Source: Blastocystis hominis
Taxonomy: Eukaryota; Sar; Bigyra; Opalinata; Blastocystidae
Direction: 5' to 3'
Assembly: GCF_000151665.1 (NCBI RefSeq)
Contig: NW_013171866.1
Location: 620,001-684,000 of the forward strand
Length of the DNA: 64,000 nt
Shown: in pieces, positions 1-20,688 of the stretch
Layout of the letters: each line of letters begins with the position of its first letter
Numbering within the stretch: the first letter of the stretch is position 1
Program-made: the position numbers and the translations under genes
The notes under the pieces: model-generated
Databases searched by the model: none
Seen by the model: the letters and a program-made list of their open reading frames with translations, nothing else
What the model was told of the DNA's origin: nothing

Positions 1-1760
1 CTACATCAATGCCAACAGGTTGGTGTCCCGAAACGGCCTCCCCTTCCCCGCGGAAACCCTCATCGCGACCTTCTCGACCCGCGCCGGCGTTCGGTTGGCG
101 TTCGGTTGGCGTTCGGTTGGCGTTCGGTTGGCGTTCGGTTGGCGTTCGGTTGTGGCCTGCTCGGATTGTGGAGAGCGCGATTGGTATGAGGGAAGTGGAG
201 TAGGCGCAGCGCAGCGCAGCGTGTCTGTGCAGATGGAGGTTCCCTGGAGCAGTGGCATCTCCGATGAAGCCCCGATGGATGGCCTTGATGGGCAGCAATG
301 TGCAGAGCCAGTTCTTCGAGACGCGCTCCGTGTTGGTGGCGGGCGCCATTGTGAACAGCGTGATGGCCATCAGCTGGCGTGTCCGCAAGGGCGCCTCCTG
401 GTCCGCCTTCGCGTCCTTCTCCGTCTACCGCCCCGTCGTGCTGCCTCCCTGCTTCCCTCCCTCCGCGCCCGTCGTGCTGCTGCCGCCTTCGAAGCCACGC
501 AGGTGCGCTGGGTCTGGTGGTGGTGCGAGCTCTTCGTGCAGGCCTTGGTTGGCTCCCACTCCCAGCTCTTCGCCGCCGACGCGCTCCTCCAAGAGGGCGA
601 CGTCCAGCAACCCGAGCTCTCTCTCTCTCTCTCGCTCTCTCTCGATGCGTGCGTGGCCTACTGGGTGCGCGTGGCGCTGTGCTCCGCCGCGTGCTCCATC
701 CTCTCCGAGGCCTCCTCTCCCATCACCCTCGCCGCGTATGTCGTCGCGCCCGGCGCGGTGCAGAACCTCGAGGTGGCCGCGCTCTCCTCGACCTCGCTGC
801 GCGTGCAGTGGGCAGAGCCGGCGGAGCTGGGCGGCGCCAGCATTCGGTACTACGTGGTGCGACGCTCGTGGATGGCGTCGATGGCCGTGATCCGGAGCGA
901 GAGCGAGAGCGAGAGCGAGAGCGAGAGCGAGAGCGAGAGCGAGGTCGCCAGCACGAACTGCTTCCTGGACCTGCAGAGCGTGCAGAGCGTGCAGAGCGTG
1001 CAGAGCGTGCAGAGCGTGCAGAGCGTGCAGAGCGTGCAGAGCGTGCAGCACACGCCCATCTATCTGAGCGTGGCCGCGTTCACCGGGTATCTCTCCCGCC
1101 AAGAGAAGATCCCCGCGGTTCTGTATGCGGTGTGTGTGGAATCAGGCGGAGGGCATTGAGTGGGACTGTGCGATGGCTGATTACCGGATCCTTCCATGAT
1201 CTCTGCACCGCCACGTGCGAGCTTCGCGCTCCCGCGACTTCCTCCTTCCTCCTTCCGCCGAACCGTCTGGTTCCCCGCGGGACGCGATGTGTGGGACGTG
1301 TTGGAGGGTGGGATCCCCGCGACTTCCTACACGCTGGAGTGCGTCCCGAGCGAAGTGGGCAGTGCCGAGTGGATGGGCAGGCAATTCGGAGTGTCCACGA
1401 TGGCCACGTCGGAATTCGTTGGGTGTTGGTGGTGGACGGCGAGCCAACCTCCTCGCTCACCGGTTCGCTCTGGGTGTGGGTGTGGGTGTGGGTGTGGGTG
1501 TGAGTGAGCAGGAATCTGGTGGGCGATGGGGTGGGGTCCGTGGCTCCCTACGAAGGTGTGCAGAGTCGACCGGGCTCTCTGGATCTCTTCCTGTCCAACT
1601 GGGCGCAGAACGCCACCGTGGTCTCCGTCACCCAGCCCCTCCGCCTCCGCCTCCGCCTCCGCCTCCGCTTCCTCTTCGCCTACGACGTGACCGGCGCGCT
1701 CATCCGCGCCCACCTCGTCGATCACGCCTGGTGCGTCGTGGGTCGCGATGTTTCCACGTT
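1..1760 (+). CDS. Partial fibronectin type III-domain protein, microsatellite-rich, structure unresolved
   Basis: The clearest coding signal is in frame 2 at about 500-1130. It reads as the end of one FN3 domain (AYWVRVALC, then SEASSPITLA) and most of the next (VQNLEVAALSSTSLRVQW, GGASIRYYVV, TPIYLSVAA). Further FN3-like text (GGIPATSYTLEC) follows near 1310, and hydrophobic coding text in frame 3 lies at 255-425. The frames must be joined by short introns that I could not place confidently. In-frame repeats have expanded inside FN3 loops: (GAGAGC)n gives Ser-Glu at 895-942, and a 9-mer gives Gln-Ser-Val at 973-1050. An 11-mer at 86-151 is probably intronic. The gene runs off the left edge, so its start and overall role are unknown; FN3 proteins are usually secreted or surface-exposed. 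Confidence 0.4.
86..151. repeat. 11-bp tandem repeat (GGCGTTCGGTT, about 6 copies)
   Basis: About six near-perfect copies of an 11-base unit. The unit length is not a multiple of three, so the array shifts frame; it fits best inside an intron of the FN3 gene. Confidence 0.85.
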
Positions 1761-1769
1761 TCCACGATC

Positions 1770-2769
1770 CAGACCGATTTGGCAGTTGCTGAGAGAAAGA
1801 AAGAGAGAAATGGTTGCGGTGTTTGGTTTGGAAGATGGATGGATGGATGGATGGATGGAATTGTAGAGATGTGGAATGGTTGAAGCGTTGTAGGATTTGA
1901 ATGAGAATCGAAAATGTGTTTAGGAAGGAAGGAAGGAAAATGTAGATTTAGAGTGTGTAGGGTGTTGGAATGATTTAGAAACATGAACAGAATAATCCAG
2001 AACGAGGAACCAAACGACTCTAGTTGATAATAATAATAATAATAATAGGGTGCTGTGAGTTGATAGTTGAAACAAACAAAGAAAGAAAGATAGATAGAAA
2101 GTGTATTTAGAGTTGGTTGGTTTAGGATAAGGAAATGATAGAAAATGGAGTGAATGGTTAACGATGTGCGAAGATAGGTTCTTTGTGTGAAAATCACTGG
2201 ATCAAAACCAATTTCCATTTGATTTACTAGTTTTACTAGTTTTAATTGCTTTCAAACCCAACCAGTCCCAAGTCAAAATGATTTGGCTAGAATCATGGAT
2301 GGATAGATTGGATTATCGAAATAATAATAATAATAATGATAATAATAATATAGACTATTTAGACAAAGTGGAGTGAACAACCAAATCCTTGCTTCATAAC
2401 ACGATTTCACTATGATATCATAAATATACAACCTATACAGACATAGTAGACAACAAAATGGACTTTTCCATTCTGAGTGTTTCCAAACAATCCTGAAATT
2501 ATTATTATTATAAATATCTATACCTCCGAACTATTTCAACCACAAAAATGTGAACAAAATGATGCGAAACACAAGTGAGTACTTCACTTGGAAATCTTGG
2601 ATCCAATGTGTATATGGTAGCACTCTATCATAATTTTTAAATATGAAGAATACTTAGGTGTACGGAAACAAACTGATCTCTCTGTTTTCTTCATAAATTC
2701 TTTATATTTGGCTGCAAATTACGAATTCAAAGAGTAGAGGCTAAGGATATGTGATTATAAATAGGTAGA
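1770..2769. other. AT-rich spacer with simple repeats, no gene seen
   Basis: GC content falls sharply after about 1.8 kb. The stretch holds GGAT repeats (about 1836-1857), several AAT runs (2028-2048, 2320-2350) and no supported reading frame. A minus-strand ORF across 1700-2218 has low-complexity composition and is not credible. Confidence 0.6.
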
Positions 2770-3555
2770 ATGCAAGAACTTAAGGGAAGCGAATTTCTCC
2801 TGGACGGTTACATAACGCGTGGTGAAGCAAAGAAAATCACTATTGGTGGCTGCAACTATAGCCTCCAATATTATCAAGGCGATCACGAGGATGAATACAC
2901 GTTGACGAAAGCTGGGAAGGTTTGCCTATTCCAAAATGGCATACTAAAAATGTGTTACGAGGTGGATGCGGACGGGAGCGAAATCGGTGACTTCACGCGA
3001 TTTGATAAGGGACGCGTCGCATTTGTGCAATCCTATGATGAAATCTGGGATAATCGGAATTTTCATCGTATTATAAACCATGTCCGAGGCGAGCGAATGG
3101 AAATCTATTCGCATGCGAGTGATCACCTGATTTATCACGGTGAATTTAATGAGAAGCGAGAACGAGAAGGATGGGGCATCGCGTATGACGATAAAACGGG
3201 TGCCATGTTGCTTGAGGGAATCTGGAAGGGGAACAAGCTGGTGGAGATCATCCGCAAGATCGAAGGAGGCATTATGATTGAGTTCAAGCGAAGCGGGAAC
3301 AACACCATCGCTTCGAATCGAATTCCCCTCTATGTGGGCGAATTCGTTTATGATGAATCGAAAGAATCGTTTCTTCGAAATGGTCGAGGATACTGGATCG
3401 ATGAAGGAACTCGGATTGCTACTCGCGAAGTGGAATGGAAAGATGGAGTGGAAGTGAGTGGAAGAGATCTCTATGATGGATGGTACACTCGATCCACAAC
3501 TCCAAAACCCAAACCCAAACCCAAACCCAAACCCAAACCCGCTCCGATGCCTGTG

Positions 3556-3605
<50 letters not shown>

Positions 3606-4600
3606 AAAACGCAAAGAACCTGCTCCTCTTCGATTCAGCGTCACTGGATCTACAAAATGGACCGATGTGAGTTTGCAAGTGACCGATTTGAAGATTTCAT
3701 CGAATTGCTGTAACGATTTGAATGCATTGGATCTGAATCGATTCGAGTGGCTACGATCTATCGAAATCGGCGATGAATGTTTTGGATCAGTGAAAACATT
3801 CCAAATCGATGGATTGAATCGATTGAAAACTATCAAAATCGGATACAATTCATTTACTCAAGTGAAACAATTTTACTGGTTCAAGTACAACAAAAAGATG
3901 GACAAGAAATCGAAATCATTCCACATATTGAATTGTGAATCATTGGAATCCATTCAAATTGGTCGATATAGTTTCAGTTATTTTGCTGGTGACTTTGAAT
4001 TGAAGAATCTACCACAATTACAATCCATTCGAATTGGTACAATTGGAAGTGATTCACGCAATTTCTATTGTAGTTCCTTTGTGATTCGAGGTATTGATAT
4101 GATATTGATTATTTGAATGATGCATAGATCTTCCAAATCTACGATCCATTACATTAGGTGATCGTGCATTCTATGATTCCTTATCAACAGTAATTGAAAG
4201 TATTGAATGAATTCGAATGAAATGATTGATGTAGATCTTCCGTCATTACAATCCATTCAACTCGGTTGGCGTGCACTTCAAGGAAGATTAAAGGATGATT
4301 CTTGTTCATTGGTAATTCGAAGTAATAATGAATTGATTGGTTATGATTTGTTTTGTAGATCTTCCAAATCTAACATCAATAACTTCTGAACGATATAGTT
4401 TCGTTAATCCTCGTGTAGTGACATTGGCAAGTATTTCTGAATATTGAATATTGATAGTATTTAGATATTCCAAATCTTCAAAATGTCAATCTACCTAATT
4501 CATTCGGGTGTGTTCGATCGAAATCAATTTCGAGTATAGTTTGATTGATTTGATTTGATTCATAGATGTTTCTTCCATTCTCGCTAATCTTGTCCACTAA
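2770..4600 (+). CDS. MORN / Pro-rich linker / leucine-rich-repeat protein, family copy 1
   Basis: Six exons: 2770-4090, 4128-4199, 4235-4321, 4359-4430, 4465-4533, 4566-4600, total 1656 bp (551 aa). The five introns are 32-37 bp, start GTA and end TAG. Residues about 1-235 contain MORN-like turns (YHGEFNEKREREGWGIAY, GRGYWIDEG). A linker of Pro-Lys then Pro-Ala dipeptides follows (about 240-280), made by CCAAAC and CTGCTC hexamers. The rest is leucine-rich repeats of the form DLPxLxSIxLG. All five introns are phase 1 and fall at the D/N codon that opens each repeat, so one exon equals one repeat. No signal peptide or membrane segment is visible. The cellular role is unknown; MORN and LRR parts suggest a binding or scaffold protein. 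Related copies lie at 19567-20688 and 62350-63575. Confidence 0.85.
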
Positions 4601-5148
4601 ATCAAGCATTAAATCCATAATTTTGATTTGATTTGTTCAGTGATTCGTCATTGTTTAGGAACATTTCCATTGATTGATTGTTTGATTGTTTGTTTGTTTC
4701 AAACCGATTCTTGATCACAATTCATGATTCTATAATTATCAAAATATCAATCCTGCCTGATTATTATGATGTTTTTCTTTACCATTTTAACAATGATACT
4801 GAATTATGATTGTTGTTTCAATCAATCAATCAATCATTGTTTTCGATCATTATTATTATCATTATTATAATTACCAATGACCCAATGATCACATATTCAA
4901 CATTCACAAATGATGAATCCAATCTACCAATATTAATAATAATAATATACAAATGATGGTTTGAATAGGTTTGAACTAGGATTTGTTCAATATTGATAGG
5001 AAACTGCTTGCTTAGAATAATCATAATCATAATAATCATAATCATGAATAATAAGATTGGATTTGATAGTGACACAATGGAATGGTTGGAATCGATTGAT
5101 ATTGGATGATTATTCACATTTGTGAATCCATTGTTAAATCGGTAGATA

Positions 5149-5231
5149 ATACAATACAATACAATACAATACAATACAATACAATACAATACAATACAAT
5201 ACAATACAATACAATACAATACAATACAATG
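5149..5231. repeat. Pentanucleotide microsatellite (ACAAT)n
   Basis: About 16 uninterrupted copies of ACAAT. Both minus-strand ORFs here are repeat translations (CIVLY...). Confidence 0.95.
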
Positions 5232-7379
5232 ATTGATATTGAATTAGGATATTGATTTTGACTTATTGAATAGGAATCGATCATTGTATACATGGAATAG
5301 AATAGAATAGAATCCGATTGAATAGCATTGGAAATCATATTGGATTCACCATTCAATCAATTCAACTATCTATCATTTGTTTGTTTGTTTGTTTGTTTAT
5401 CAATGAGTTACAAAACATGGATTTATCAATTTGATAATAATGGAATCAAATCGGATGTGTTTGATACTTGATAGTTGTAGTTCGTAATAATATCAATCGT
5501 GGTTTCACAATTCGATATTTGGATGGAATGTCGTATTCTTCAATATCACACAAACCATTCACTCATTCACTCATTCACTCACTCAATCAATCAATGGATG
5601 AAAGATAGCTGATTCAAAATGCAAATGAATGTTGAATATCGTAAAGAATCAATTCATCATTCACACTCAATAATACTGATAAGAATAGAAAGGCTGTTCA
5701 ATCCATTGATCGATTGAATGATTGATTGATTGAATGAATGGTGTGTATTTGGTTAGTTTTCGATATCCATTCATCATCATTATTATCATTATGATTGTAT
5801 GATCATCCACATTATTCATCGGTCTATTTCAGCATATTGAATACCATTAGATCACTTTGGTATTGTTGATCATGAATAGAATGATTGGATAGGATCGATC
5901 AATCAGAATCAGAATCAGAATCAGATTGATGATGAGTATTCAACCATCAATCCTCATGATTATTATTATTAGTATTATTTGTTTTTGTTTTTGTTTTTGT
6001 TCGATTATCAATGATATAGAATGGATCGAATGATTCATTGATAGCGATCTAATCGACTGATAGAATTATACAATTGATTCGATCGAATCCAAATGGAACA
6101 ATCACTCAAACACATTGTAGTCTCAATGGTTGTTTTGCAATTGAATCGATCGAGATTCATGAAATCGTTATGTTCGATCATTGGTTTAGCAGGAATCTAT
6201 CATTGTACTGTATTGTCTAACAATACTCTTATTTCTTTCATTCATTCTTTCTTTCTTTCTGCTTATTATCATTATTATTATTGATATCATTCAAATCATT
6301 AGATCCCATTCGAACAAGTCAATATGGAATCAGCATTTGATAATCACAATACAATAATGAGACATATTGTGAGAACCATTTGTGTTGTGGTTTGAATATG
6401 AGTATTTCGATAATGGCCTTTCTTGGAATCCATTGTTTGATTGTATATCCAATATGCTGTTTGTGATTATACACCGATGAATCCACAAATCACATATTTC
6501 GAATGAATCTTGATCGAACGACTTCAATCGAATCGTTTTGACAAGATTCATTGCACTTAATCCAATTGAATCAATAGGAATCGACACAATCCATATTTGT
6601 TTGTTGAGATAGTATTAATTTGGATAATACTCAATGATTCATTATTCTTTTGTTTGTTTTTGTTTTGATGTTGCTCATCTATTTTTGATTATTCCATTTT
6701 TCATTTGTTGTTGTTGTTGTTGTTTTTCAACTTTTGGAATTCATTGTAGTTCATTTTATTATTTCATTTTCGATTTTGATTTTTAGTTTATTCTTGTTTG
6801 TTTTGCTATTCTTTAGTTTTCTTTGTTTCTTATTTTCTTATATTTGTGCATTTTTTTCCTCTTCCTTTTTGTTTTGTTTTGTATGATATGATTCTAATTT
6901 GTTTTTAGTTATTCTTTTTTGTATTTTCTTTTTCTTTATTTCCTTTTTTATATTCTGACATTCATCTTATTATTCACTATCCACCAGACAAATTGAATTG
7001 TGTCGATTTTTATCTGATTCAATTCTCATAAGGAAATATGTGATTATTTGTTTGGATTGTTCCATGTTTTGTTTTGCTTATTTCTGTTTGTTTTCTGTTT
7101 ATCATCATCATCATCATTATTATTATTATTATTATATACCCATTTTAACCAATCATCGAATCAATCATGTGCCATCAGTTTGAAACAACAATACAAATTC
7201 CACAGATCATTGTAAAATGAACCAGATAGAATTGTTCCAATCATAATCAATCGAAATGTGTTCCTATTAAACGAATCAAATCAAATCAAATTATCAAGCG
7301 GAATCGAATGAAACACAATGAATCAAATCAAATCAAATCACCTAACAAGATAAGATAAGCTTAGACTTACCAAATGGAA

Positions 7380-7690
7380 TTGAAATCTATGAAAATTATA
7401 TGAAATCAATTCCATTCTATTTATCAACTATACTCGAATCGATTTCGATTGAACATACCCCAATGATACAAGTAGATTGACATTTTGAAACAGATTTGGA
7501 ATATCTATTTACCATCTCTATTCAATATTTAGATCCACTTTCCAATGTCACCAAAACGAGGACAACAGAAACTCCATTATACAGAAGTTAGTGATGTTAG
7601 ACTTGGAAGATCCAAAGCAAATCATAACTAATCGATTCATTGTTACTTCGAAGTGTCAATGAAGTTGAATCATCATCATCCCATCTTTCT
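7380..7690 (-). pseudogene. Relic of an LRR-family gene (two to three repeat exons)
   Basis: Read on the minus strand, this matches consecutive exons of the 2770-4600 gene. In order there is: the end of an exon (CTTCGAA, then GTAACAATG as donor), an intron whose acceptor has become TGG, an exon start ATCTTCCAAGTCTAAC, then TGACATTGGAAAGT and a further exon start ATATTCCAAATCTG. Repeat phasing and intron positions survive but splice sites and frame are damaged. It is a dead copy inside the AT-rich spacer and supports past local duplication of this family. Confidence 0.7.
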
Positions 7691-8912
7691 CCCCTACCTT
7701 CCAGTATCCGATATCATATGATCATATTGTTTTTCGTTCTTATTCATTCATTCATTCATTTTGTTTTCCTTCATCACTCACTCATTCAATTATTCATTCA
7801 TAGATTAATGGATCATTGATTGTCATAAAGGAAACACTTGATTCTTTGCTTTCATTGATTCCATTTCTTCTTTTGTTGACAAGAAATATTGTTATCGATT
7901 TTGATGGTCTGGAATCAATGAATGAATGGTAGGGGAGAAAGAGAGAAATAGCAATAGCAGCAGCAACATCCACAGCAACAGCAGCAATAATAGTAGTAGT
8001 AGTTGTAAGCAATGGACCAAACTATCTATCAAATGATTTAATCAATAATCAGAACCTACAATACGAAATCATTTCAAATCAATCCGATTGATGATTCGTG
8101 ACAACAATCAATCTTTCCATGGAAACCTACAATCAAATGATCTCCTCTTCATTTATATTTTAATCTGAATCGATTCACATAGATTCATTCAATTATGTGG
8201 ATTGTTTGAAATTGATATGCATTCTTGGTATTTGTTTGTTTTCACATATCGAGTTTGTTCTTCATTTCGATCATCCCACATAACAATCTAATTGATCTAT
8301 TATCCAGAATCGATCAGTAAGTATTATTGATTGATTGATTGATTGATTGATCCATGATAATAATAATAATACTCATATTACCAATAATATGACTATTATT
8401 ATCATGGATTTGGTTCTTTCCTTATTTCTTTATTAAACTACACATATGATTGTTTCAGTATCTCTTTCTATGATGATTACTAGTATTATTATTATTAATC
8501 ATCAATAGCTATGGATTGTTCTCAGATATTCTTCTTCTTCTTATTCCTTTTACTGTTATTATTCTCATTATTGCTTGTTATTCACATACACATTGTTTGT
8601 TCTACATCAATTTGGTATTGATTCGATATCGGACACTGCATTGAGTTCACAATTCATCCATTTGGATTATTACTCATATTATTGTTCGTTCCTATTATGT
8701 TGTTGCTGCTCATTACTTCATTTCATTTCATTTCATTTCTGTTCTAGACATTGCTTTTGAACACATAATCTTATTATTATTATTTTCATTGATTTCTATT
8801 ACTGTTATTATTGTTGCTGTGCCATTTTAACGAATTCATTGTCGTTATTATTGTTATTTGCTTTGTTGTTTGATAGATTCATATTATGAAAGAGTATACA
8901 GAATAGGCATCG

Positions 8913-8946
<34 letters not shown>

Positions 8947-11282
8947 GCGTTAAACAGTTCTAAAAGCATGAACAAATGAATGAATGAATGAATGAATGAA
9001 TGATTGAATCGATGACATTATTGATGCAGAATTACAGTTCATTGGTTGTGATAAAGGTCTTTGTTGTTTTGTGAATCACTCCACAGAGAGAGAATCTTTC
9101 GTTCATTCATTGATTCATTCATTGATTAATTCAATGATTTGTTGGTTGATTCAATCATTCAATCAGCCATCCAAACCAAAGTGAATCAAATATGATACTA
9201 TGAATGAATAGAATAGAATACAATAGATTGAATGAATGGCATCCTTGTTACTGATTTACAGATCATTGGTTGTGAGTAGTGTATTGAGATTGTCAATCAA
9301 TTCTTAGATAAGATATCATTCATTCATTCATTTATTCATTCATTGATTTGATGGTATAATCATTCAAATATCCCATTGCAATTCACATGATTGGTCCACT
9401 TTATACAGATTTAACGATATTTCCTTGTCAACAATCCATCATTCATTCTTATGGTACAAAATATACATAATCACAGTATGCACTCAATTCAAATCGATGT
9501 TTGTAGGATTACTCATTCATTCATTCATTCATTTGTTTTCATTTCAGTGTTGAATTGCTGAAATCGAATCGAATCCAACTCCAATATCACAACCAATCAC
9601 ATTCCCATTCATTTCGATTCTCTCTCATTCACTTTTCATTATCATTATCACGTATTACATTCATAATAAATAACTAATACATATCATTGAATGGATTAAG
9701 ATCTTAAGCAATGAATACTATTTCTTCTTTTCTTTTCTTTTCCTTAGGCCTTTCTTTCATCCATTCATGGTACAAAACATCTCCATGCTATGCAATCTTT
9801 GTACATCCAACTCATATTCATTCAATAGATTGTGACCAATTACACAAATGATTCCAGTACTATTCTATTCACATATAGCATACAATCTGTGATAATATCT
9901 AGGAATCATTCAGTTCCAACCACTATATACTAATCATTGTGCATTCCAACTAACAATAACGGAATTTACTACAAATTCCAATCATTCATTCATCGATTGG
10001 TTATTCCAGTACTAAGTATCAACAGTATTGTTCCTGTTACTCAGAATTAGTTATTTTATGAAAATGGATTTAACAGAATCAAACATTGTGTTAAACCAAT
10101 GAAATGACAGAATCGTGTTTGTCTGGATTTTGTTTGTTTTGAAGCAAAACTATGCATGATCTATGTAATTCGTTTCAGGATGTGCTAAAACAGATCCCTG
10201 TGAAATATCATCATTTCAGCTATTGTTCGTCATAATTTGTGAAAATGACTTCATTTCCATTACTACTTCATACATATGTTATTTTCTACTATTCTATTAC
10301 ATTCTAGTATTGTTGTTGTTTTCATTCATATTGGCCATTTCTGATTATTCCACACTTATCTATCTTATTTTCACAGTATTCTATTCCATGGAGTATACTA
10401 ATAAGCCAAAATATACAATCAATCACAAATACACATTATTCTATTTTCCCATACAGAATAATGATGATGATGATGATGACAAAACATCAACTATTCACAA
10501 TCAATACTATTGAGAATAACTAGTGTGAAGACTCTTGCTTGTTAATACTGCTCATTCCTTCTCTCAGCTTAGAACACGAACTAACAACATTATTAGTTGT
10601 CACATTTAGAATGTGAATTCATTATAGGCTTTGATACAATTCATATCACACAATATGCACAAAAATGAAACAATACACATTTGTTGTTATTCTATTGCAG
10701 ATATTCATTTTCCAAGTATTGATTCAAAGTATCTCGAGACTATAGTATACAGATTAGTCATATATCAAAGGAAATACAACAATACTTGTGATAAATGACT
10801 GATTCATCCTTCCTATTTCTATTGATGAGTTCATCCATATTTGATACATGTCACATAACAAAAATGATCCTATTTTCACAATAACAAAAGCTTTCGATCA
10901 ATAATAATATGATTTATCAACTTGTAGCCATCTTAAACCTCATTACTATGGAACAATAGTAGTAAGAGAATGGCACTATTTGTGTGAAACCTGGTGGCAG
11001 TTTTCTTTATATGCTATTTTGCACAATGACCACAATTGCGATCCTTTGTCAGTTGTTGTAATCGACCAACCGATTCTGAGTCCTCAACTATCGTTCCTAG
11101 GCTGTCTGGTCGACAATCATCGGTCAAGAACCAGGTTTCGTGCTTTCTTACTCCTATTCCTTTCTACTATCAACCTAGTGTCCATTTCTATTGTTGTGCT
11201 TGCTGCGTCAGTTATACTTGGATGCATGAAAGCAGTAGACATACCTAGCTAATGTGAATTATTGTTATTTCTCTCGTATTTA

Positions 11283-11370
11283 CATGTTTGTTTACTAATT
11301 TGTAATGACCGAAAGCCAATGTGTGTACATTGTCATCACAAATCCATCTATTGTTGTCTATGCAAGTCAT
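11283..11370 (+). other. Tiny Cys-rich reading frame at the element's left part
   Basis: A short frame, ATG at about 11320, reads M-C-V-H-C, eight residues, then C-C-L-C-K-S and a stop. Paired Cys-x2-Cys groups are compatible with a zinc-binding knuckle. It is too short to name and may be a remnant. Confidence 0.25.
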
Positions 11371-11517
11371 AAGTGTCTTTGGTAAAGAGAGAACATGCAT
11401 TACTCCATTCTCATACAAGATTCACCTATCAATGGTTCATTCGATTCAATCAATCCTTACAAGTTCAGAAATCCATTTATCACTTCCATGACTGTTCTAT
11501 TCTAACCCAATCAATTC

Positions 11518-11793
11518 ATGTTCAATATTGTGAACTCAATCAATGTGGTGACAAACATCAATGGTGAAGAGGTAACGATCTCGCCTGATTATTTTACACT
11601 GAGTAAAATCATTGCCATTCTGAACACCATGATTAATACTACATTCTCAATTTCCACAATGGATACAAGTTATGAGTGTATTTGGATCCAGTCTCCATAC
11701 TCTATCGATTTCACGAGGTACATATGATATCGAAACGATCATTGCAATGTTGAATGCGAGTGATGCTCTATTTGAAATAGTGTATAGTTGAGA
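11518..11793 (+). pseudogene. Possible Polinton penton-like (minor capsid) remnant
   Basis: Two consecutive frames give related segments: ITISPDY-like text (VTISPDYFTLSKIIAILN) and, after a frameshift near 11720, GTYDIETIIAMLNAS. The pattern of a short beta strand, Gly/Pro-Tyr turn and hydrophobic helix ending in Leu-Asn is typical of the N-terminal part of penton-like proteins of Polintons and related viruses. The match is pattern-based only. No full jelly-roll domain survives. Confidence 0.25.
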
Positions 11794-11893
11794 AAATGTA
11801 TTTCGAATCTATAACCAGTTTGTGATTCTTCCTCTGACACAACTTATTCATTCCTTGAATATAGTGACTCATTTATCGAGGTATGTGGGGAAC

Positions 11894-12909
11894 ATGAATG
11901 AGATCAAGGAACTATGGAAACCAGCAAAACGAAGAGGTGCCACTCGAATGATCATTAGTGGCTTCAAGAGAAACATATACTTCATCGATTTTATCGATTT
12001 CTATTCCAAACAACACAAATCGATACAGAAAGTATTGAGAAGACAAAAGAGTACTGGATTCTACATGAATCGTGGATACAAATATGTCCTTGTATGGATT
12101 GATGGATATTCGAAATATCTGATGACACGAAAACTGAAAAGCAAGAGTGCCACAGAAGTCACTCATGCGATGAAGGATATCATTCTAACATATGGTGAAT
12201 CACCAAAGCATAGTTGCTCGGATCGAGGTACCGAATTCACCAATGCCATCTTTCGTACCAACATCTTGAACAAGTATGATATCACCATGTATCACATGGA
12301 TTTAGCGAATAAGGCAGTACTAGCCGAACGAACAATTCGAGATATCAAGGAACACATCATGGTTCCTTCATTCCATTCAATCAATGGAAAGGTGTATGGT
12401 TTGATTTGATCGATGGTGCAGTTCGTCGACATAATGGAAGGAAGAACAGAGACATCGGATATACACCCAATGACATTTGGCTTAACAACAACAACGATAT
12501 CTTGTACATGGAGAAAACAAAACCATCCAACATGACAACAAAAAACACAACACCTCAATTCGATGTTGGTGATTATGTTGGAGTGACACGAAGACCTCGC
12601 ATTCTGGAAAAGCGATCATTGACGAGCAAATGGTCTCAGGACTTGGTTGAAGTTGTTGATATTGACGATCACATCATGCCATTGATGTACGAAGTGAAAG
12701 ATGTGGAAAGCGATAGCACACAGAAGTGTTATGATTGGGAACTGTTGGCTAGCAAATGTAAACCACAACCAGTATCATCCATCACTCGATCCAAGAGTCG
12801 AAAGGAACCCAATGCATTGAGAGAGGCAACAAGATCACATCGACCAATTACGAGCACCCAGAAGATGAAGCAACAACAACCTCATTCAAGTGTTCGAAAA
12901 CGATCGTGA
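11894..12909 (+). pseudogene. Polinton rve-type (DD35E) integrase, frameshifted
   Basis: The first part (frame to 12409) carries the catalytic core: a first Asp in IYFIDFIDFY, the second in CSDRGTEF and Glu in VLAERTIRDIK. The second Asp and the Glu are 35 residues apart, the D35E spacing of retroviral and Polinton integrases. The second part (frame from about 12380 to 12909) gives HNGRKNRDIGYTPNDIW and an SH3-like C-terminal domain (FDVGDYVGV, DWELLA) that normally follows the core. The parts lie in different frames and overlap near 12380-12409; no GT-AG interval reconciles them, so I read this as a frameshift. The activity would insert the element into host DNA. Its 3' end overlaps the convergent minus-strand gene by about 60 bp. 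Confidence 0.8.
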
Positions 12910-14072
12910 TGCTCTTCACACCTTTCAGACATACGAGAGAAGAGATATTCGTGAATACAGAGATCATATGACTCTCACTTGTCCATTCTATTCCATTTAT
13001 CAGTTTGGTATGGGAAAGGGGCACAAGATTGTTGAGTATATCGATGAATGGTACATCGAGCAAAGACACCCCATTAATTGAAACACTCGCCTTGTATTCC
13101 TTATCCACAACCGATTCGATGGAATCACAATGTTTGAATAGGGCATCATTCTCATTGTAACATGCAATCGATGTGATCGACAGATATAAAGCCGAAGATA
13201 ATTCGAATTGGCATTGATTATTGAATGGTTGAGTGGATGTGTGTGTATAATTAAACAGTGTGGCATTATTGACTTTCACAAAACACTCAGAAGGTATCGT
13301 CCATGAATATTGATGAACACCATCCACTGTTTCACGCACGAGGACATGTTTGCCGTCGTTCTCTGGCATATTGATGAGCATGTTATCGAGCTTCTTGAAC
13401 GTGTAATTGTTTCCATTGCTGCTGAATATGTACAACATTGATTGATACAATTAACTTTGGTTGATTTCGTTCATAGGGTTTGACATACATACCCTTCAGA
13501 CACGCGCCATCATCGATGAACAGATCGGACAACTCGGGAGGCACTTCATCATTCACGACCTTGTAGACCACGCGTACATAGTAGTTGGAGAAGAAGTAAA
13601 CAGCACGATTCTCAGTTTCCACAGACACCACGTAGGGTTGGGTGTAGTACGTCCTGCCGAAGACGTTCAGAGGCACACCGAGCAGACCATAGGATTCCAA
13701 TTGAGGCAATAGATATTCCCATTCATCCTCGGTAAATATGGGGGGACGAGCTTCGTCCAGGGTCATCTCGATGCAATCGTAGTCGTGCAGGATCAAACCA
13801 CAGTTCACATTCGATTGCGGAGTGCAAACACTGAAACCGAATAGACGCTCACAATTGATCGGATACTTGGTATGGATAATGATATCGGCGAGTTCGATAT
13901 TTTCGTCCTCACAAGTGCGTACCAGGGAAGACCATGTGTTGTTCTCTGTTTTCTTGTATTTCATTTTTATCAAGGCATCCAGTGGGGTTAAAAGAGAAAA
14001 TATTAATATATAAATACATATATGAACAAGCCAACTCACACATTGAATCCCAATACAGGACGAGAAATTCAA
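12848..14072 (-). pseudogene. Unidentified Polinton gene, minus strand, one frameshift
   Basis: Two overlapping minus-strand frames (14072-13383 and 13450-12848) appear to form one protein of about 400 residues, joined by a frameshift near 13440. The likely start is the ATG around 13963 (MKYKKTENNTWSSL) because upstream residues look like translated spacer. The text is rich in beta-strand-like alternation and aromatics (GRTYYTQPYVVSVETENRA, SNYYVRVVYKVVND, WTIPSECFVKVNNA), as expected of a virion-type structural protein. I cannot assign it to major or minor capsid families. No catalytic motif is visible. It is transcribed opposite to its neighbours and converges with the integrase. Confidence 0.45.
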
Positions 14073-14855
14073 ATCAACGGAGTTCGATTCTGGAACCTTC
14101 TCAGGCGTGGATTCAAGTACAACGAGAAATTGAATCGTTTGTAGGACAAACCATTACCACCAGGTACGATGAAATACGTTCCCAAATCGAGATTGCTCTC
14201 TCCTAACAATCATTCCTTGATTATTGGAGAATCTGCCTACTACCAATTTCTCCGTGACAACTCTAGACCACGAGGCGGCAAATGGGTGAAAATGACGAAA
14301 GAAGAAGCCAAAGCGTACGATAATGATTCGAATATCAAGAAGATATTCATGGACGACCAGAAAGATGATTCGGACAACTCATCGTCCTATCCAGACGACA
14401 TCGATGAATTCAAATATGACTAAGATGGAAATGCGATTATCCCATTTGAGGTCTGGTACCTACTAGCTACTTGCCATCTAAGTTTTACTTTAGACTTAAA
14501 CAATTTGGTTGCCTATATATTAATAAGTATTCATCGCAACGAATATACTATCAACCCGGAGACTGGACGAATAATCAAGATTGGCGCTCATACCTGGAAA
14601 CGCTTTGCTGCCAAGTACTATCTGATCGATGGGAAGTTCACAGAGTAGCTCATTCCTGATTCACGAGAATATGTGTCAAACAAGGTATGGAATGAGAATA
14701 CAAGGTCATTGAAAACAGCAAAGAAACCAAAATACGCAACTCCTTGTAAATGAGTTGGTGATCCCAAAGGAGAGTGCAAGAATCTGATTGTGGGAAGCAA
14801 AGCATGGAACGAGAGATATCTCGAATATTAATGGAATGGTCATGAATTCGGTTAG
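14022..14855 (+). pseudogene. Protein with three NPxTGR-type repeats (2-cysteine-adaptor-like), broken by nonsense codons
   Basis: A single frame of about 276 codons from ATG 14022 is interrupted by TAG 14142, TAA 14421, a TAG near 14642 and a TGA near 14748. Three copies of the same motif lie in frame: LNPNTGREIQINGVRFWNLL, INPETGRIIKIGAHTWKRFA and DPKGECKNLIVGSKAWNERY. Each is Asn/Asp-Pro-x-Thr/Gly-Gly/Glu-Arg/Cys, hydrophobic strand, Gly, aromatic, Leu. This resembles the 2-cysteine adaptor motif of proteins from large DNA viruses. The middle is acidic (DDQKDDSDNSSSYPDDIDE). Because all three stop codons occur, decay is likelier than recoding. Confidence 0.5.
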
Positions 14856-14882
14856 AAGAGAAAACAACCATTATTTGAAGCC

Positions 14883-15443
14883 ATGAACACGGTGGAGAAG
14901 CGACAAAAAATAACACGTCGCAACAATTTCTTTGCTATGTTCGATCGCAAAGTCGCGGAAAGAAACTTGTCGGATGTGATCGTTTTCTCACTTGAATGTG
15001 CACTCACTTTCTATCACACCGCGGATACTAACATATACACAGAATAGATGAATGAGAAGCGAACCAGGAAGGACTTTCGCCTCAAGAACGATGAAGACAA
15101 GAGACTATGGGTTCGACTTCTTGATGGAAAGAACGAAGAGGAAGTGGAACCGATGAACCTGATGATGGACGAGACGGGTGAGTTCAATGAGGTAGCGAAG
15201 AAGTTCATTCTCAATGGTATGTGTGATTATCCACAGTGTCTCATCACCATCATGGCATACAACCTCATGTGGTCACATGCCGGTGAACTCAAGATACTCA
15301 ATCTCACCGATGATCAATTGGGACACCTTCGTATCATTCACAAGGATTGTATCGACGAGTGGTTGGAGGATTATCTGAAGTGGTACAAAAATGCAGTGAA
15401 AGAGAAAGAGATGGAAGGAAGTGGATTTGTGTACCGTGGTTAG
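14883..15443 (+). pseudogene. Unidentified Polinton-borne gene with one internal TAG
   Basis: One frame runs from ATG 14883 to TAG 15441 with a single in-frame TAG at 15045, directly before an ATG. The part after the TAG (MNEKRTRKDFRLKND to GFVYRG, 131 aa) is charged and probably helical, with Trp-rich segments (WVRLLDG, EWLEDYLKWYK). No family recognised. It precedes the polymerase frame and overlaps its presumed 5' end by about 20 bp. Confidence 0.4.
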
Positions 15444-18400
15444 ATCGGCTTCCATGTCGAGATGTTCCCACTTCGCTGATTCGTGGGTTACAAACATCAT
15501 AACACCTTTGATCCTTGGATGCACAGTTGTCAACCCGAATATCAATGACATCCGGTGCCTACAGCGATGTCTCATCCTGACAAGTGATGGCGGACACAAG
15601 ATCATCATGAATCGCAAGATGGGCGATTCGAGTGGGTACAACATATGGTGGAAATAACCCGACAAGCACATGGTGTTTAGGATGACAATTCACGAAATCG
15701 AGGAAGCAATGGACATTTGTGATAACAAGGCATTCGAGCAAAGTGAAGAGAAATTCGCGAGATTGAAAGAATTGAAAGTCTCTTTTAATGTTTTAGAAAT
15801 CACTCTGTTGCCTGGTTACGCTGACAACTGCAAGGATGAGTATGAGCTATTCACATGTTATCAGGTATACAAGTCAGAGGTGAATGGAACCACCCTCTCT
15901 CTTTATATTGTAAATGATACTCGAGGGGAGGGAGAGATAACAAAAATCCCAAGTACTTCTTATACATCAAAGACTTGAGCGATTTCAAACATCGCATCTT
16001 TCGTCAGAGTGATGCAAAGAATAGGCATCTTGCAAGAAACGTGGAGTACAGGTTCTGTGACTTCTTTAGATCACAAAGAGCTTTCCGAACCCATGAAGTA
16101 CAGGCATATCACAAACTGATGGATGATCGTGATCAATACAAGTTGTCGAGTGAAGAAACACGTCTGCGATTCACGAACCAGCAATACGAAATGCCATCAC
16201 CGGTCGTCGTGTATGTTGACTTCGAGTCAGCCATTGATGACAAGAATAGACACAAACCCATCATGTTGTCCTGTTTGGCCGTATCACACATTTTAACCAT
16301 TCAGACTCAACTGTGGATCTTCCACTCACCACAGGAGAACGAGAGTGATCTTCGTCCTTTCATGGAGAATCTGATTCAGTTACAAGAAAACGTGAAGTAG
16401 TATCTATTCGATGAATTACCCCGTGAGAACACTCCCGAGATTGAAAGAGATTATCAGTCTACGTCTATGTGTCCATTCTGTCGCAAGAAACTTCAGGATA
16501 ATAAGGTTAAACATAATGCACATGTGGTAGGTGAGTATTCGAATGACACTGAGACCCGTTTCTACGAGGCTGGACAGTACATTGGCACCTGTTGTACCAA
16601 ATGCAATTTGCAGCTCTCGTTCAACAAGAAGAACTATCGTCTACCCGTCTACTTCCACAATGGATCGCACTATGATTTCACATTCATCATGAAACTCATA
16701 GCGGCAATGCCCGGGGACCTTGAAGTCATTCCAACCACTGAGGACAAGGAAATGCAGATCGAGTACAATGGCATTCAATTCAAGGACTCGTTGAAGCTCA
16801 TCAGTAGTCCACTGCGTTCCATTGTGGCACAGACACTCGGTGGTAACTTGGACCTCTATGTGCACACCAAACAACAACTATGCAAGTACTGTGAGTCTCG
16901 AGGCAAGCAATGGAATGACGAATACATCGATCTGTTGACACGGAAAGAACCCATGTTCTACAGTCTCATCAAGTCGTACGAGACGATGAACAATACTGTC
17001 ATTCCTCCTCGCGAGCAATGCATTGATGATATGAAGGGTGAGATGATGCCACAAGACGAATATGATCATATGGTGAAGCTGTGGAAGACCTTCGATATCA
17101 AGACATGGTGTGAATACTACGAATTGTACAATGTACTCGATGTGACTCTCATGGCTGATGTATTCGAGCATTTCCGAAACACCACACTGAATGCATTCGG
17201 TGTTGATCCCATGCATTACATCACAGCACCACAAATGGCATATTCGCTCTTCTTGAAAGTCACAATGGAGGGCGATCATAGTGAGAGTAGCCTCATGACC
17301 CTCGCAAGGAAATGGGCTCAGTACATCATGCGCATCAACGCGAATGAGGGGCTCACCGAGAAACAACTCGTGAAAGTGTTCTTGAATCGCATGGGTGAGT
17401 TCTATGATAGCAAGGGCATTCGATTGATGGAAACAAATGATATCGATGACTTCATGCGATTGTTGAAGAACCTGCGAGGAGGTATCACACAGATAGTGAA
17501 ACGACATGCCAAGGTTGACATTGACAACAAGGAGCAAGCAACGTCGTCCCAAGGCATCTACTACCTGGACGCCAACAACCTGTACGGTGGAGCCATGCAT
17601 CGAATGATGCCTTATGAGTTGGTGGGTGTACCTGAGCGACGAGAAGTGATGGAGAAGATCAATCGTGATCCAAATGGGTGGGTACAATCACTCAAGACGT
17701 TCGGCAAGTATGGGTTCATCATCGAGTGTGACATCGAGGCACCAGTGGAGCTGCACGACAAGTTCAATGATCTGCCATTCTTCCCCGTACAGAAGGCGGG
17801 AATGTACTCCGATGGAATCAAGAAGTACGCAGAGAAGAACGACATTGTGGACAAAGTGAAAGAGGTGAATACACCGAAGCTCATCTGCGATCTTGTACCT
17901 CGTCAAAAGTATCTCGTGCATTACTCACTGTTACAACTGGGCATTCAACAGGGATATCGTGTCACACACATTCACCACCTCATTCGATTCAAGCAGGCAC
18001 CATTCATCTTCGAGTACGTGAACATGCTGAGTGAGAAACGAGCGAAGTCCAAGACCACCGTGGAGAAGAACCTGTACAAACTGTTGGCAAACTCGACCTA
18101 TGGCAAATTCGTTGAGACTGGGCTGAAACGAATGAAAGTGAAGTTCGCTAACACGTGGAATGAACGTGAGGCAATCATTCAGAAGCATGGGTACGATATG
18201 ATCGCTGGGACAACCATGTATTCCGAGAATCTCATCGGCATCAAGTTGAACACACCGGTGCGCAGGGTGGAGAAGCCGTTCTTCATCGGGTTCGCCATTC
18301 TCGACATGTCCAAACACATCATATACGATTTCTACTACAATGTGCTCAAGAACACATTCGACACCGTGGAGCTGTTGGGACAGGACACGGATTCACTCAT

Positions 18401-18962
18401 CGTGCAGTTGCACGATCGCGCTAACATCGTTTACAAGATGTGTGACATGTACAAATCGTTCGACTTCTCGGAATTGGACAACACGAGCTACTTCTATGGA
18501 GAACTCGTGAACTATTACGAGCATGAAGTGGACAAGAGCAAGTTCCCTTCATTGGACTCGTTCCTCAACTTCAACAAGAAGTTGCCTGGTCCGATATTCA
18601 AGGACGAGCACAACGGACATCGCATCACGGAGTTCGTGGGACTTAGACCGAAGATGTACTGTTTGGTTGATGAGAAGCATGTGATACACAACGCAGCAAA
18701 GGGAGTTCCTCGCAACGTGGTGATCGATGGTGAGAGGATGAGCGTGAAGAACATCGAATTATTCAAACGTGCTCTTGAGGCAGAGATGAAGGGAAATGAA
18801 GTCATCGAAGGCAACTTCAAACACATCAATAACCAGGGATTCGATATCACCACCAAGGAACAGACTAAGACTCTTATGACTTGCACGGATGACAAGCGTT
18901 GGATCCTGGTCGATAATGTACATAAACTGGCTTTCGGGCATTCCCGATTGGCTGATAAGTGA
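15421..18962 (+). pseudogene. Polinton protein-primed family B DNA polymerase, with broken N-terminal part
   Basis: From 16401 to TGA 18960 the frame is open and all catalytic motifs are present. Exo I is VVVYVDFESA (just upstream of a TAG), Exo II is HNGSHYDFTFIM and Exo III is YNVLDVTLM. Polymerase motif A is YLDANNLYGGAM, motif B is KNLYKLLANSTYGKF and motif C is GQDTDSLIV. The order and spacing fit the protein-primed polymerases of Maverick/Polintons, which also carry a long N-terminal extension. That extension is broken: TAA at 15655, a frameshift at an A-run near 15945 and TAG at 16398. The enzyme would replicate the element. The start is uncertain. Confidence 0.9.
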
Positions 18963-18999
18963 TAATAATCTAACAAGTATTCACTTTGGCCCTCGGCCG

Positions 19000-19566
19000 A
19001 TAATTTTGCTGCATTGTTCGTCGTCGATTTTCAGGGAAGGTTAACATTTCGCGACTTATTGGTAATGAAGGGTAGAATAAGAGTTACCCAGAGTAAGCAA
19101 CGGTGAGTGATGGAAGATGGGGTCTGAAAGATGAATTTGATCGAAAATGGTTGGAAAAAACGGGAAATAGTATTTGCGCAAAACGAGTCTGTTACTAACT
19201 ACTCTTGGTTTTGTTGGTTTTTTGTAAGGGTACAATATTACGGCCATGTTGTGTGTTGTGCAAACGGCGCCTTTTCCTGATTAATACATAATAAAATACG
19301 GAAAGAACATGAATTGAAAGCTAATTGAACTCTACGAATCCTTTGCTTGAATAAGTCATTTTTATATTGATTTCCGCAATAATTATACTTGCATATACAA
19401 TGTGAATCTCCAAAAGTGTATTTGAACCGTTCTGTTATAAATTAACAGTGAATTAAACTGAGTTTCTCCATTTTGATGGTAGATTAATACTTTTTTTGGT
19501 GTACTGATATGTTCAAAAATAGTATATTCTTTTTTATATTACTCTCAAATAGCCAACCTTACTTCA
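19000..19566. other. AT-rich spacer between the element and LRR copy 2
   Basis: No gene seen. The right border of the Polinton should lie here. No inverted repeat matching the left side was found by eye. Confidence 0.4.
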
Positions 19567-19634
19567 ATGAACAAGGCTCAAAAGTTGTCTTGTAAATATG
19601 CTTCTGCTCCTGCTCCTGCTCCTCTTAAAATTTT

Positions 19635-19689
<55 letters not shown>

Positions 19690-20688
19690 CTTAAAATAAC
19701 TGTAACAGAAAATATGAAACTGAGTAAAGTGAGTTTGCAAGTGACGGATTTAATGATTTCATATAATTGCTGTAACGATTTATATACATTAGATCTGAAT
19801 CGATTCCAATGGCTACGATCGATTGTAATCTGCCAAAAATGTTTTGAATCAGTACAAACATTCGAAATTGATGGATTGCATCGATTGAGAACTCTAAAAA
19901 TAGAAATGAATTCGTTTACCGAAAAAAAGAATAAGTATGGAAAAGATGAATCGAAATCGTTTCACATATTGAATTGTGAATCACTAGAATCAATTGATAT
20001 TGGTCAATACTGTTTCAGCGATTTTGCTGGAGACTTTGAATTAAAGAATCTGCCCTCATTACGATCAATCAAAATCGGAAATATTAAAAATCCTCATAGA
20101 TACGAAGACAATGAAGATATGGAACTTGTACTCTTTTGTGCTTTTAATCAGAATTCTTCTTACAATTTTTATAATAGTTCGTTTGTGGTTCGAAGTAGTT
20201 ATAGGACTAATTATATTATGATTAGATCTTCCAAATCTTCAATCTATTATACTAGGTAATCAAGTATTCCGTGCTTCCACATTAACGATAATTGAAAGTA
20301 TTCAACAAGGAAAAGGAAATAGTTGATCTAGATCTTCCATCATTAGAATCCATTCAACTCGGTTGGTTTACACTACAAGGAAGTGATGAAGATTCTTGTT
20401 CCTTAATAATGCGAAGTATGAATATGATGATTCGAAATGATTGAATGTAGATCTTCCTAATCTAACATCTATTAGTTCCTCATATTCCAGTTTCCGTGAA
20501 TATCATTCAGTGACATTGGAAAGTCGTCTTTGTTAGTTCATATTAATGTAAATAGATATTCCTAATGTGCAAAATGTTGACATAAATTCTTCATTCATAA
20601 ACGTAGAATGCAAATCAATATCGAGTATTATGTGATTAATTCTATTCTATTTTTAGACGTGAATAGCAGGCTAGCTTCTCTTTTCTAG
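19567..20688 (+). CDS. Pro-rich / leucine-rich-repeat protein, family copy 2, lacking the MORN part
   Basis: Six exons: 19567-20194, 20226-20297, 20332-20415, 20451-20522, 20556-20624, 20657-20688, total 957 bp (318 aa). Introns are 31-35 bp, GT-AG, all phase 1 and at the same repeat boundaries as in the 2770-4600 gene. After a short N-terminus there are two Pro-Ala blocks from CTGCTC hexamers, then repeats (LSKVSLQVTDLMIS, SIVICQKCF, SFHILNCESLESIDIG, DLPxLxSIxLG). The MORN-like N-terminal third of copy 1 is missing, and the decayed Polinton lies just upstream. This may be a truncated but open gene. The role is unknown. Confidence 0.8.

Follow-up and report, generated by a model that had tools for sequence, protein, structure and literature searches.

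A decayed copy of a Maverick/Polinton-type element was found in a 64,000-nucleotide stretch of the Blastocystis hominis genome, referred to below as the window (contig C38:620001–684000). The copy lies at 11.3–19.1 kb of the window and is broken and capsid-less. It was shown to belong to an amplified capsid-less lineage that is defined by a common deletion junction. Intact-looking relatives of 21.5–22.8 kb were found in the same assembly (18.7 Mb, 40 contigs), which agrees with the suggestion of an earlier note, made from the letters of the window, that intact relatives may exist elsewhere in the lineage. The locus is very probably a decayed copy of a capsid-less Polinton lineage, a judgement passed jointly with the larger explanation developed below. 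Many of the genome searches scored the best candidates only, and copy counts are therefore lower bounds.

The remnant in the window

The earlier note had proposed a Maverick/Polinton-type element in this region, and an integrase and a PolB gene were both confirmed (Table 1). The integrase matched the Pfam family rve with E = 1.5e-11 over 11822–12409, and PolB matched DNA_pol_B_2 with E = 5.2e-18 over 16467–18962, a stretch that is open. The window integrase is 78–81% identical in amino acids (aa) to the integrase of a complete element; its frame is broken at about 12406. The acidic triad reads D, D-34-E (nt 12101, 12221 and 12326), one residue short of a strict DD35E, and the earlier DD35E label was dropped. 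What we take to be PolB motifs A, B and C lie at nt 17568, 18081 and 18384, with ExoI in a separate open reading frame (ORF) at nt 16212. The claim that all motifs are present is true only across broken frames. The N-terminal half of PolB runs through several frames with five stops and bears out the description of the copy as decayed. The extra element-type genes noticed before are present too, as counterparts of three genes of a complete relative. The 141-aa protein of that relative carries a faint 2-cysteine-adaptor-like motif (Pfam 2C_adapt, E = 0.31, below cut-off).

The limits of the copy are close to the 11280–19000 first proposed. Its left edge is an inverted piece of PolB, which forms an inverted repeat with 18867–18949 and is similarly arranged in the copy on contig C8; on the right, weak similarity reaches about 19139. 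A blastn match of this right end to the right ends of the complete elements on C36 or C40 was not found. The fragments of the left-end gene, which is internally deleted, are 70% and 78–81% identical to the C40 and C36 left ends by blastn and 66–71% by tblastn. At the junction between these fragments and the integrase, about 13.4–13.8 kb is missing compared with a complete element, including the candidate capsid, protease, ATPase, fibre-like and KilA-N genes. A tblastn search of the window with these proteins of the relatives (E up to 1e-3) gave no match.

Table 1. Features of the window, in window coordinates (LRR, leucine-rich repeat; nt, nucleotide; aa, amino acid)
Feature	Position	Strand	Basis
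Left part of larger dispersed repeat: GC-rich stretch, LRR gene (2770–4116), AT-rich stretch	1–11295		Collinearity with C8, probes
Empty site ATTGTA for complete element C2:1714370–1736709	5794–5799		Flanks compared by eye
Inverted duplicate of PolB 3' end (PolB piece residues 1303–1330), left edge	11296–11379	−	tblastn 85.7% aa, E 5.6e-11
Large gene from the left end of complete elements, in two fragments	11380–11809 (~11380–11730, 11684–11809)	+	blastn, tblastn
Deletion junction, left-gene fragment/integrase	11810–11813		Comparison with complete elements
rve integrase, two frames (ORFs 11822–12409, 12406–12909)	11894–12906	+	Pfam rve; tblastn
Counterpart of 197-aa element gene	12863–13438	−	tblastn 49% aa, E 2.4e-51; open ORF
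Counterpart of 169-aa element gene	13467–13964	−	tblastn 87% aa; open ORF
Broken counterpart of 141-aa element gene	14022–14447	+	tblastn 75% aa; one stop within 14022–14420
N-terminal part of PolB, interrupted by stops and frame changes	15009–15945	+	tblastn
PolB exonuclease and polymerase region (ORFs 15975–16400, 16467–18962)	15948–18956	+	Pfam; 89.9% aa to complete element
Polymerase segment close to capsid-bearing copies	16613–18761	+	90–95% nt to C36, C40; 17461–17961 not compared
Degenerate right end, like another capsid-less copy	18951–19139		73.8% to C37:275201–275531 over 18812–19139

Complete elements and their genes

A genome search with the PolB piece scored 54 places, the best of 246 candidates and including the window's own. 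The others are 89–94% identical in aa, and 37 of the 54 lie in open frames of 1,472–1,519 codons. Because the piece recurs at this identity in 53 other scored places, a chance match is excluded. Contamination was judged unlikely, given dozens of dispersed copies on many contigs, records named Blastocystis hominis, and an empty site for one insertion.

Stretches of ten copies were inspected. No terminal inverted repeats (TIRs) were found within 9 kb of PolB, the elements being longer than first assumed. In the C36 and C40 elements the TIRs begin about 19.5 and 20.0 kb before the PolB piece starts and reach 0.42 and 0.33 kb past its end. A 26-base terminal pattern has 34 matches in the genome (17 per strand, 30 exact; control 0), and six inward-facing pairs, 21,478–22,825 bp apart, mark complete elements. 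The pairs were assigned by hand from the terminal matches, and the TIRs were examined in two of them (C36 and C40). Four of the six are bounded by a perfect 6-bp target duplication, read by eye as acagat, attgta, acatta and ttcata. The earlier note had suggested a search for TIRs and target duplications, and it is these relatives, not the window, that yielded both. The termini are AGTAGT/ACTACT, with one AGT absent on the left of C2:1714370. This element, C2:1714370–1736709, interrupts a copy of the dispersed repeat in which the window relic lies. The C36 and C40 elements, which have no target duplication, would fit recombination between elements after insertion.

Read in the orientation of PolB, the elements begin with a large left-end ORF (open over 1,004 codons and truncated by the edge of the piece) and a similar 232-codon frame. 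These are followed by an 800-aa coiled-looking protein, a 337-aa protein with repeated GGA, a cysteine-protease-like protein and a KilA-N protein. On the opposite strand come a 430-aa protein with a P-loop-like motif, a 177-aa protein and a 429-aa capsid candidate. The first strand then carries a 430-aa fibre-like protein and the integrase (Pfam rve, 3.7e-12, in a complete relative), and two minus-strand ORFs, the 141-aa ORF and PolB complete the order. The KilA-N domain protein of one complete element (L030:3504–4496) matched Pfam with 1.4e-9.

The 429-aa capsid candidate gave 83 hits from 83 candidates, merged into 76 loci. Coverage is 409 codons or more in 67 rows, of which 61 are free of stops. 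The 430-aa protein encoded on the same strand as the capsid candidate, with 87 rows in the genome, is a candidate ATPase on the strength of what we take to be a P-loop-like motif. The protease candidate, of 137–197 aa, has a His..Asp..Cys-Gly pattern that we assume to be that of an adenovirus-like cysteine protease. In the PHROGs the matches were weak and concerned transposase, unknown-function and one DNA polymerase family, and the PDB search with the PolB piece gave nothing significant. When PDB chains were searched up to E 10 with a profile of the capsid candidate, none of the matches was a capsid; a distant relation to the virophage capsid is possible.

Ten capsid-bearing copies, those that directly follow the window in the PolB list and not a random sample, were used for summed ratios of non-synonymous to synonymous change (dN/dS). 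The values were low, with 0.14 for the capsid candidate, 0.16 for the integrase, 0.14 for the N part of PolB (500 codons) and 0.04 for its last 333 codons. The fibre-like gene is unlike its neighbours in having a median synonymous divergence (dS) of 1.86. Compared at L010:6272–7564 and the same place in nine further copies, it falls into two types among the nine copies placed. Identity in aa is 48–56% from one type to the other and 81% or more inside a type; for one of the nine copies the placement used a 152-aa piece. The neighbouring DNA is about 90–98% identical despite the divergent types. The frames are short in copies c2c and c3; that of c3 is a different frame and was not used for the types, and the c3 DNA at this place is 95% identical to C40. 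Such a two-type pattern would be expected if a gene for host recognition were exchanged as a cassette.

The capsid-less lineage and its polymerase segment

In the copy counts, hits less than 2 kb apart were merged, and an 8-kb neighbourhood was our own cut. A probe across the junction (11280–12400) gave 45 rows from the 40 best of 285 candidates. The junction is spanned by 40 rows, the window's own included, and a capsid-gene hit within 8 kb was found for none of these 40. The integrase gave 123 rows (122 best of 180 candidates), which form 116 loci. A capsid gene lies within 8 kb of 66 of them (median identity 97%), and the 50 loci without it have a median identity of 87%. The view that the window holds just one decayed copy was rejected, as the remnant belongs to an amplified capsid-less lineage that shares its deletion junction.

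Many members of this lineage lie in a larger dispersed repeat. C8:164364–182681 is collinear with window 1–18950 save for about 650 bp near 6.0–6.6 kb. Probes from 1900–2900, 8000–9000 and 10300–11400 each found at least 37–40 full-length or nearly full-length places at 92–96% identity, the window's own included. Among the 40 junction rows, at least 26, 19 and 14 have the 10300, 8000 and 1900 parts, respectively, upstream at the expected distance. It is quite possible that window-type copies spread only by segmental duplication of a host repeat holding one captured relic, an alternative that concerns the mode of spread alone and is compatible with the rest of the explanation. The C8 collinearity favors it, as do the 10300–11400 matches about 1 kb upstream of the junction and the similar identity, mostly 92–96%, of the AT-rich part and the junction between copies. 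Nevertheless, the same junction occurs with other left ends. In the copies at C38:616495 and C14:30909, about 560 bases to the left of the left gene are unlike the AT-rich part of the window, and the former has a faint TIR-like left end (34 bases, E 4.8e-4). In C37:272573 and C13:177351 the left gene is 71–82% like that of a complete element. The capsid-less form is thus not confined to the composite repeat.

The polymerase segment of the window (16613–18761) is as near to the C36 and C40 elements as C36 is to C40, C3 and C2b (90–96%). Beyond it, at 18762–18950, identity of the window to C36 and C40 drops to 78–82%. Between 12.6 and 16.6 kb it is 62–82% in nine of ten 400-base bins and 87–89% in the remaining bin; the bins of the integrase are intermediate, at 85–93%. 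Between the window and C36, dS falls from 0.995 in the N part of PolB to 0.395 in the last 333 codons. On these sequence comparisons, the pattern suggests that most of the segment was recombined or gene-converted from capsid-bearing copies. Either process, acting among copies, would account for the good polymerase of a decayed copy.

The segment could instead have been kept by purifying selection within the capsid-less lineage. In the window the frame at 16467–18962 is open, no stop was found in the final 333 PolB codons of either the window or C8, and dN/dS there is 0.04–0.08 in the pairs tested. Selection of this kind is nevertheless an unlikely alternative to recombination, because the silent sites shift too and nucleotide identity jumps between 16.2–16.6 and 16.6–17.0 kb.

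With recombination as the preferred reading, a history can be proposed. The ancestor would have been a 22-kb integrating virus-like element with linear DNA and TIRs. Its rve integrase would insert the element, making the 6-bp duplications, and its PolB would replicate it from the ends, presumably by protein priming. The candidate capsid, protease and ATPase would probably serve in packaging and, in turn, in the formation of virions. One copy would have lost the segment with the capsid module but retained its integrase and PolB, and would then have multiplied. A form whose left side carries an inverted PolB tail would have joined the larger dispersed repeat and been amplified with it. Recombination with capsid-bearing copies would then have replaced or homogenised most of the polymerase segment. 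How the capsid-less copies moved we infer.

Several observations weigh against this explanation. For the window copy neither a recognisable TIR (terminal pattern, up to three mismatches) nor a target duplication was found, so that its own insertion is not demonstrable. No 6-bp duplication is present at two of the six complete elements (C36:590110–612473 and C40:12994–35818). The names ATPase, protease, capsid and fibre derive from presumed motifs, size, place and conservation, and that of the capsid is unproven; Pfam and PDB searches with the capsid, protease and ATPase candidates returned no significant match. Thirteen of the 66 capsid-linked integrase loci are below 90% identity, so the distant integrase type is not limited to capsid-less copies. 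The mosaic was read from two capsid-less and two capsid-bearing copies (the window against C8, C36 and C40, of six aligned rows). Over the final 333 codons of PolB, C36 is closer to the window than C8 is (dS 0.456), and the capsid-bearing copies themselves have a median dS of 0.289 there versus 0.116 in the N part; exchange may be general among copies. The PolB of the C8 copy has five stops as well. One stop (query residue 145) is common to the window and C8 and the other four differ, and the master copy may already have been broken.

As a tentative extension, the capsid-bearing family might be a living Polinton-type virus of Blastocystis and related protists, with its own capsid lineage and a two-type fibre-like host-recognition gene, still exchanged via virions. 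The capsid-less lineage would be its satellite, spread by proteins of the virus and refreshed by recombination.

Relatives elsewhere and known systems

PolB homologues numbered 210, of which 120 were listed. Among these, three are Blastocystis-like at 88–92% identity, two of them named Blastocystis hominis. P0004–P0023, from metagenome-type sources with contigs up to 23 kb, are 46–59% identical, P0024 is partial, and the others are at 25–31%. The four named matches among the latter, two from Leptopilina and one each from Helicoverpa and Larinioides, are uncharacterised or unnamed in their sources. They are 27–29% identical with E from 2.4e-76 to 7e-70 and are presumably Polinton PolBs. In an alignment of 17 homologues with L002, 14 members of the metagenome group are 41–51% identical to the first sequence. 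A 50-row tree, which took 48 homologues and gave long-branch warnings, split 26 rows (5 Blastocystis-like and 21 metagenomic) from the other 24, which include the four arthropod proteins; SH-aLRT support for this split was 100%.

Several of the metagenome PolB relatives (P0004, P0008 and others) carry an N-terminal 2-cysteine adaptor domain (PF08793, 9.9e-9 in P0008), a domain known from large DNA viruses. For the capsid candidate 85 homologues were found, at 42–97% identity and, in the case of one partial match, at 34%; 32 of the 85 were aligned. A profile search for more distant capsid relatives returned 85 proteins, none beyond those of the first search and none named. No relative was found among the viral contigs of IMG/VR or the prokaryote genome contigs of GTDB; the metagenome relatives form a PolB clade not found in the former collection. 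They could sit in other subtypes or in other hosts, since orthologues of Blastocystis subtypes have a median identity of 59–61% (PMC5608401).

As in the Maverick/Polinton elements of animals and Trichomonas, PolB and an rve integrase are combined with TIRs, 6-bp target duplications and many copies in a protist. Candidate ATPase, adenovirus-like protease and capsid genes occur in the Blastocystis relatives. Unlike in those elements, PolB is only 27–29% identical to the named arthropod proteins found, the capsid candidate is without detectable sequence relatives outside its own set, and a capsid-less derivative was amplified with a larger repeat. Length is not decisive for membership. The complete relatives are slightly longer than the 15–20 kb stated for Maverick/Polinton in PMC4028283.

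A virophage or Polinton-like virus, in place of a strict Maverick/Polinton, would accord with a capsid candidate that has no detectable similarity to any named capsid. This assignment is distinctly unlikely, in view of the rve integrase with 6-bp duplications and of the PolB matches to named arthropod proteins, in a comparison without a labelled virophage PolB. A Maverick/Polinton-type element is thus preferred. Like the endogenous mavirus-like virophages (EMALEs) of Cafeteria, as described in PMC8547959, the elements are integrated and virus-like, reside in a stramenopile, and have an rve integrase, TIRs and many copies per genome. They differ in their 6-bp duplications, those of EMALEs being predominantly 3–5 bp according to that paper, and in the capsid, for which no similarity was found through PDB and protein searches rather than a direct comparison. 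OmPLV of Oxyrrhis marina has a Y-recombinase and a helicase–PolB fusion according to PMC12721341, whereas the Blastocystis elements have an rve integrase, and Pfam scans of their ORFs, as far as these were scanned, gave no helicase match.

The earlier note was aware of no described Polinton from Blastocystis, and none was found in the open-licence literature searched. In that literature, no title or opening of an abstract reported an integrated DNA virus, Polinton, Maverick or virophage in Blastocystis, a very common human gut protist. The open-licence paper with both Blastocystis and Polinton names Blastocystis in a reference only. The main text of the subtype 7 genome paper, which reports 18.8 Mb with 25% repeats, contains neither 'virus' nor 'integrase' (PMC3129679), and the main text of a large protist survey does not mention Blastocystis (PMC10120064). 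The element may already be known outside the literature searched. Polinton-type elements are a known kind; relative to the literature and databases searched, the host, the lineage of the capsid candidate and the amplified capsid-less form are new. With a many-copy, largely intact Polinton family and a conserved capsid candidate, particle formation becomes testable. The capsid-less lineage is a natural example of how a virus-like element becomes a repeat of the genome, and it hints at an exchange of polymerase segments between such elements.

That the whole composite of LRR gene, AT-rich stretch, integrase and PolB is one giant mobile element with captured host genes is very improbable: its order is conserved in many copies and the C8 copy has a degenerate TIR-like right end (50 bases, 76%), but a left terminus was not found, the window beginning inside the repeat, 15 of 40 rows for 8000–9000 have no 10300–11400 neighbour among the matches listed, and the C3 copy of the AT-rich part stops at 10672. 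The relic is flanked by LRR genes with proline-alanine tracts at 2770–4116 and 19567–20590 of the window, which are about 16.1 kb apart and run in the same direction.

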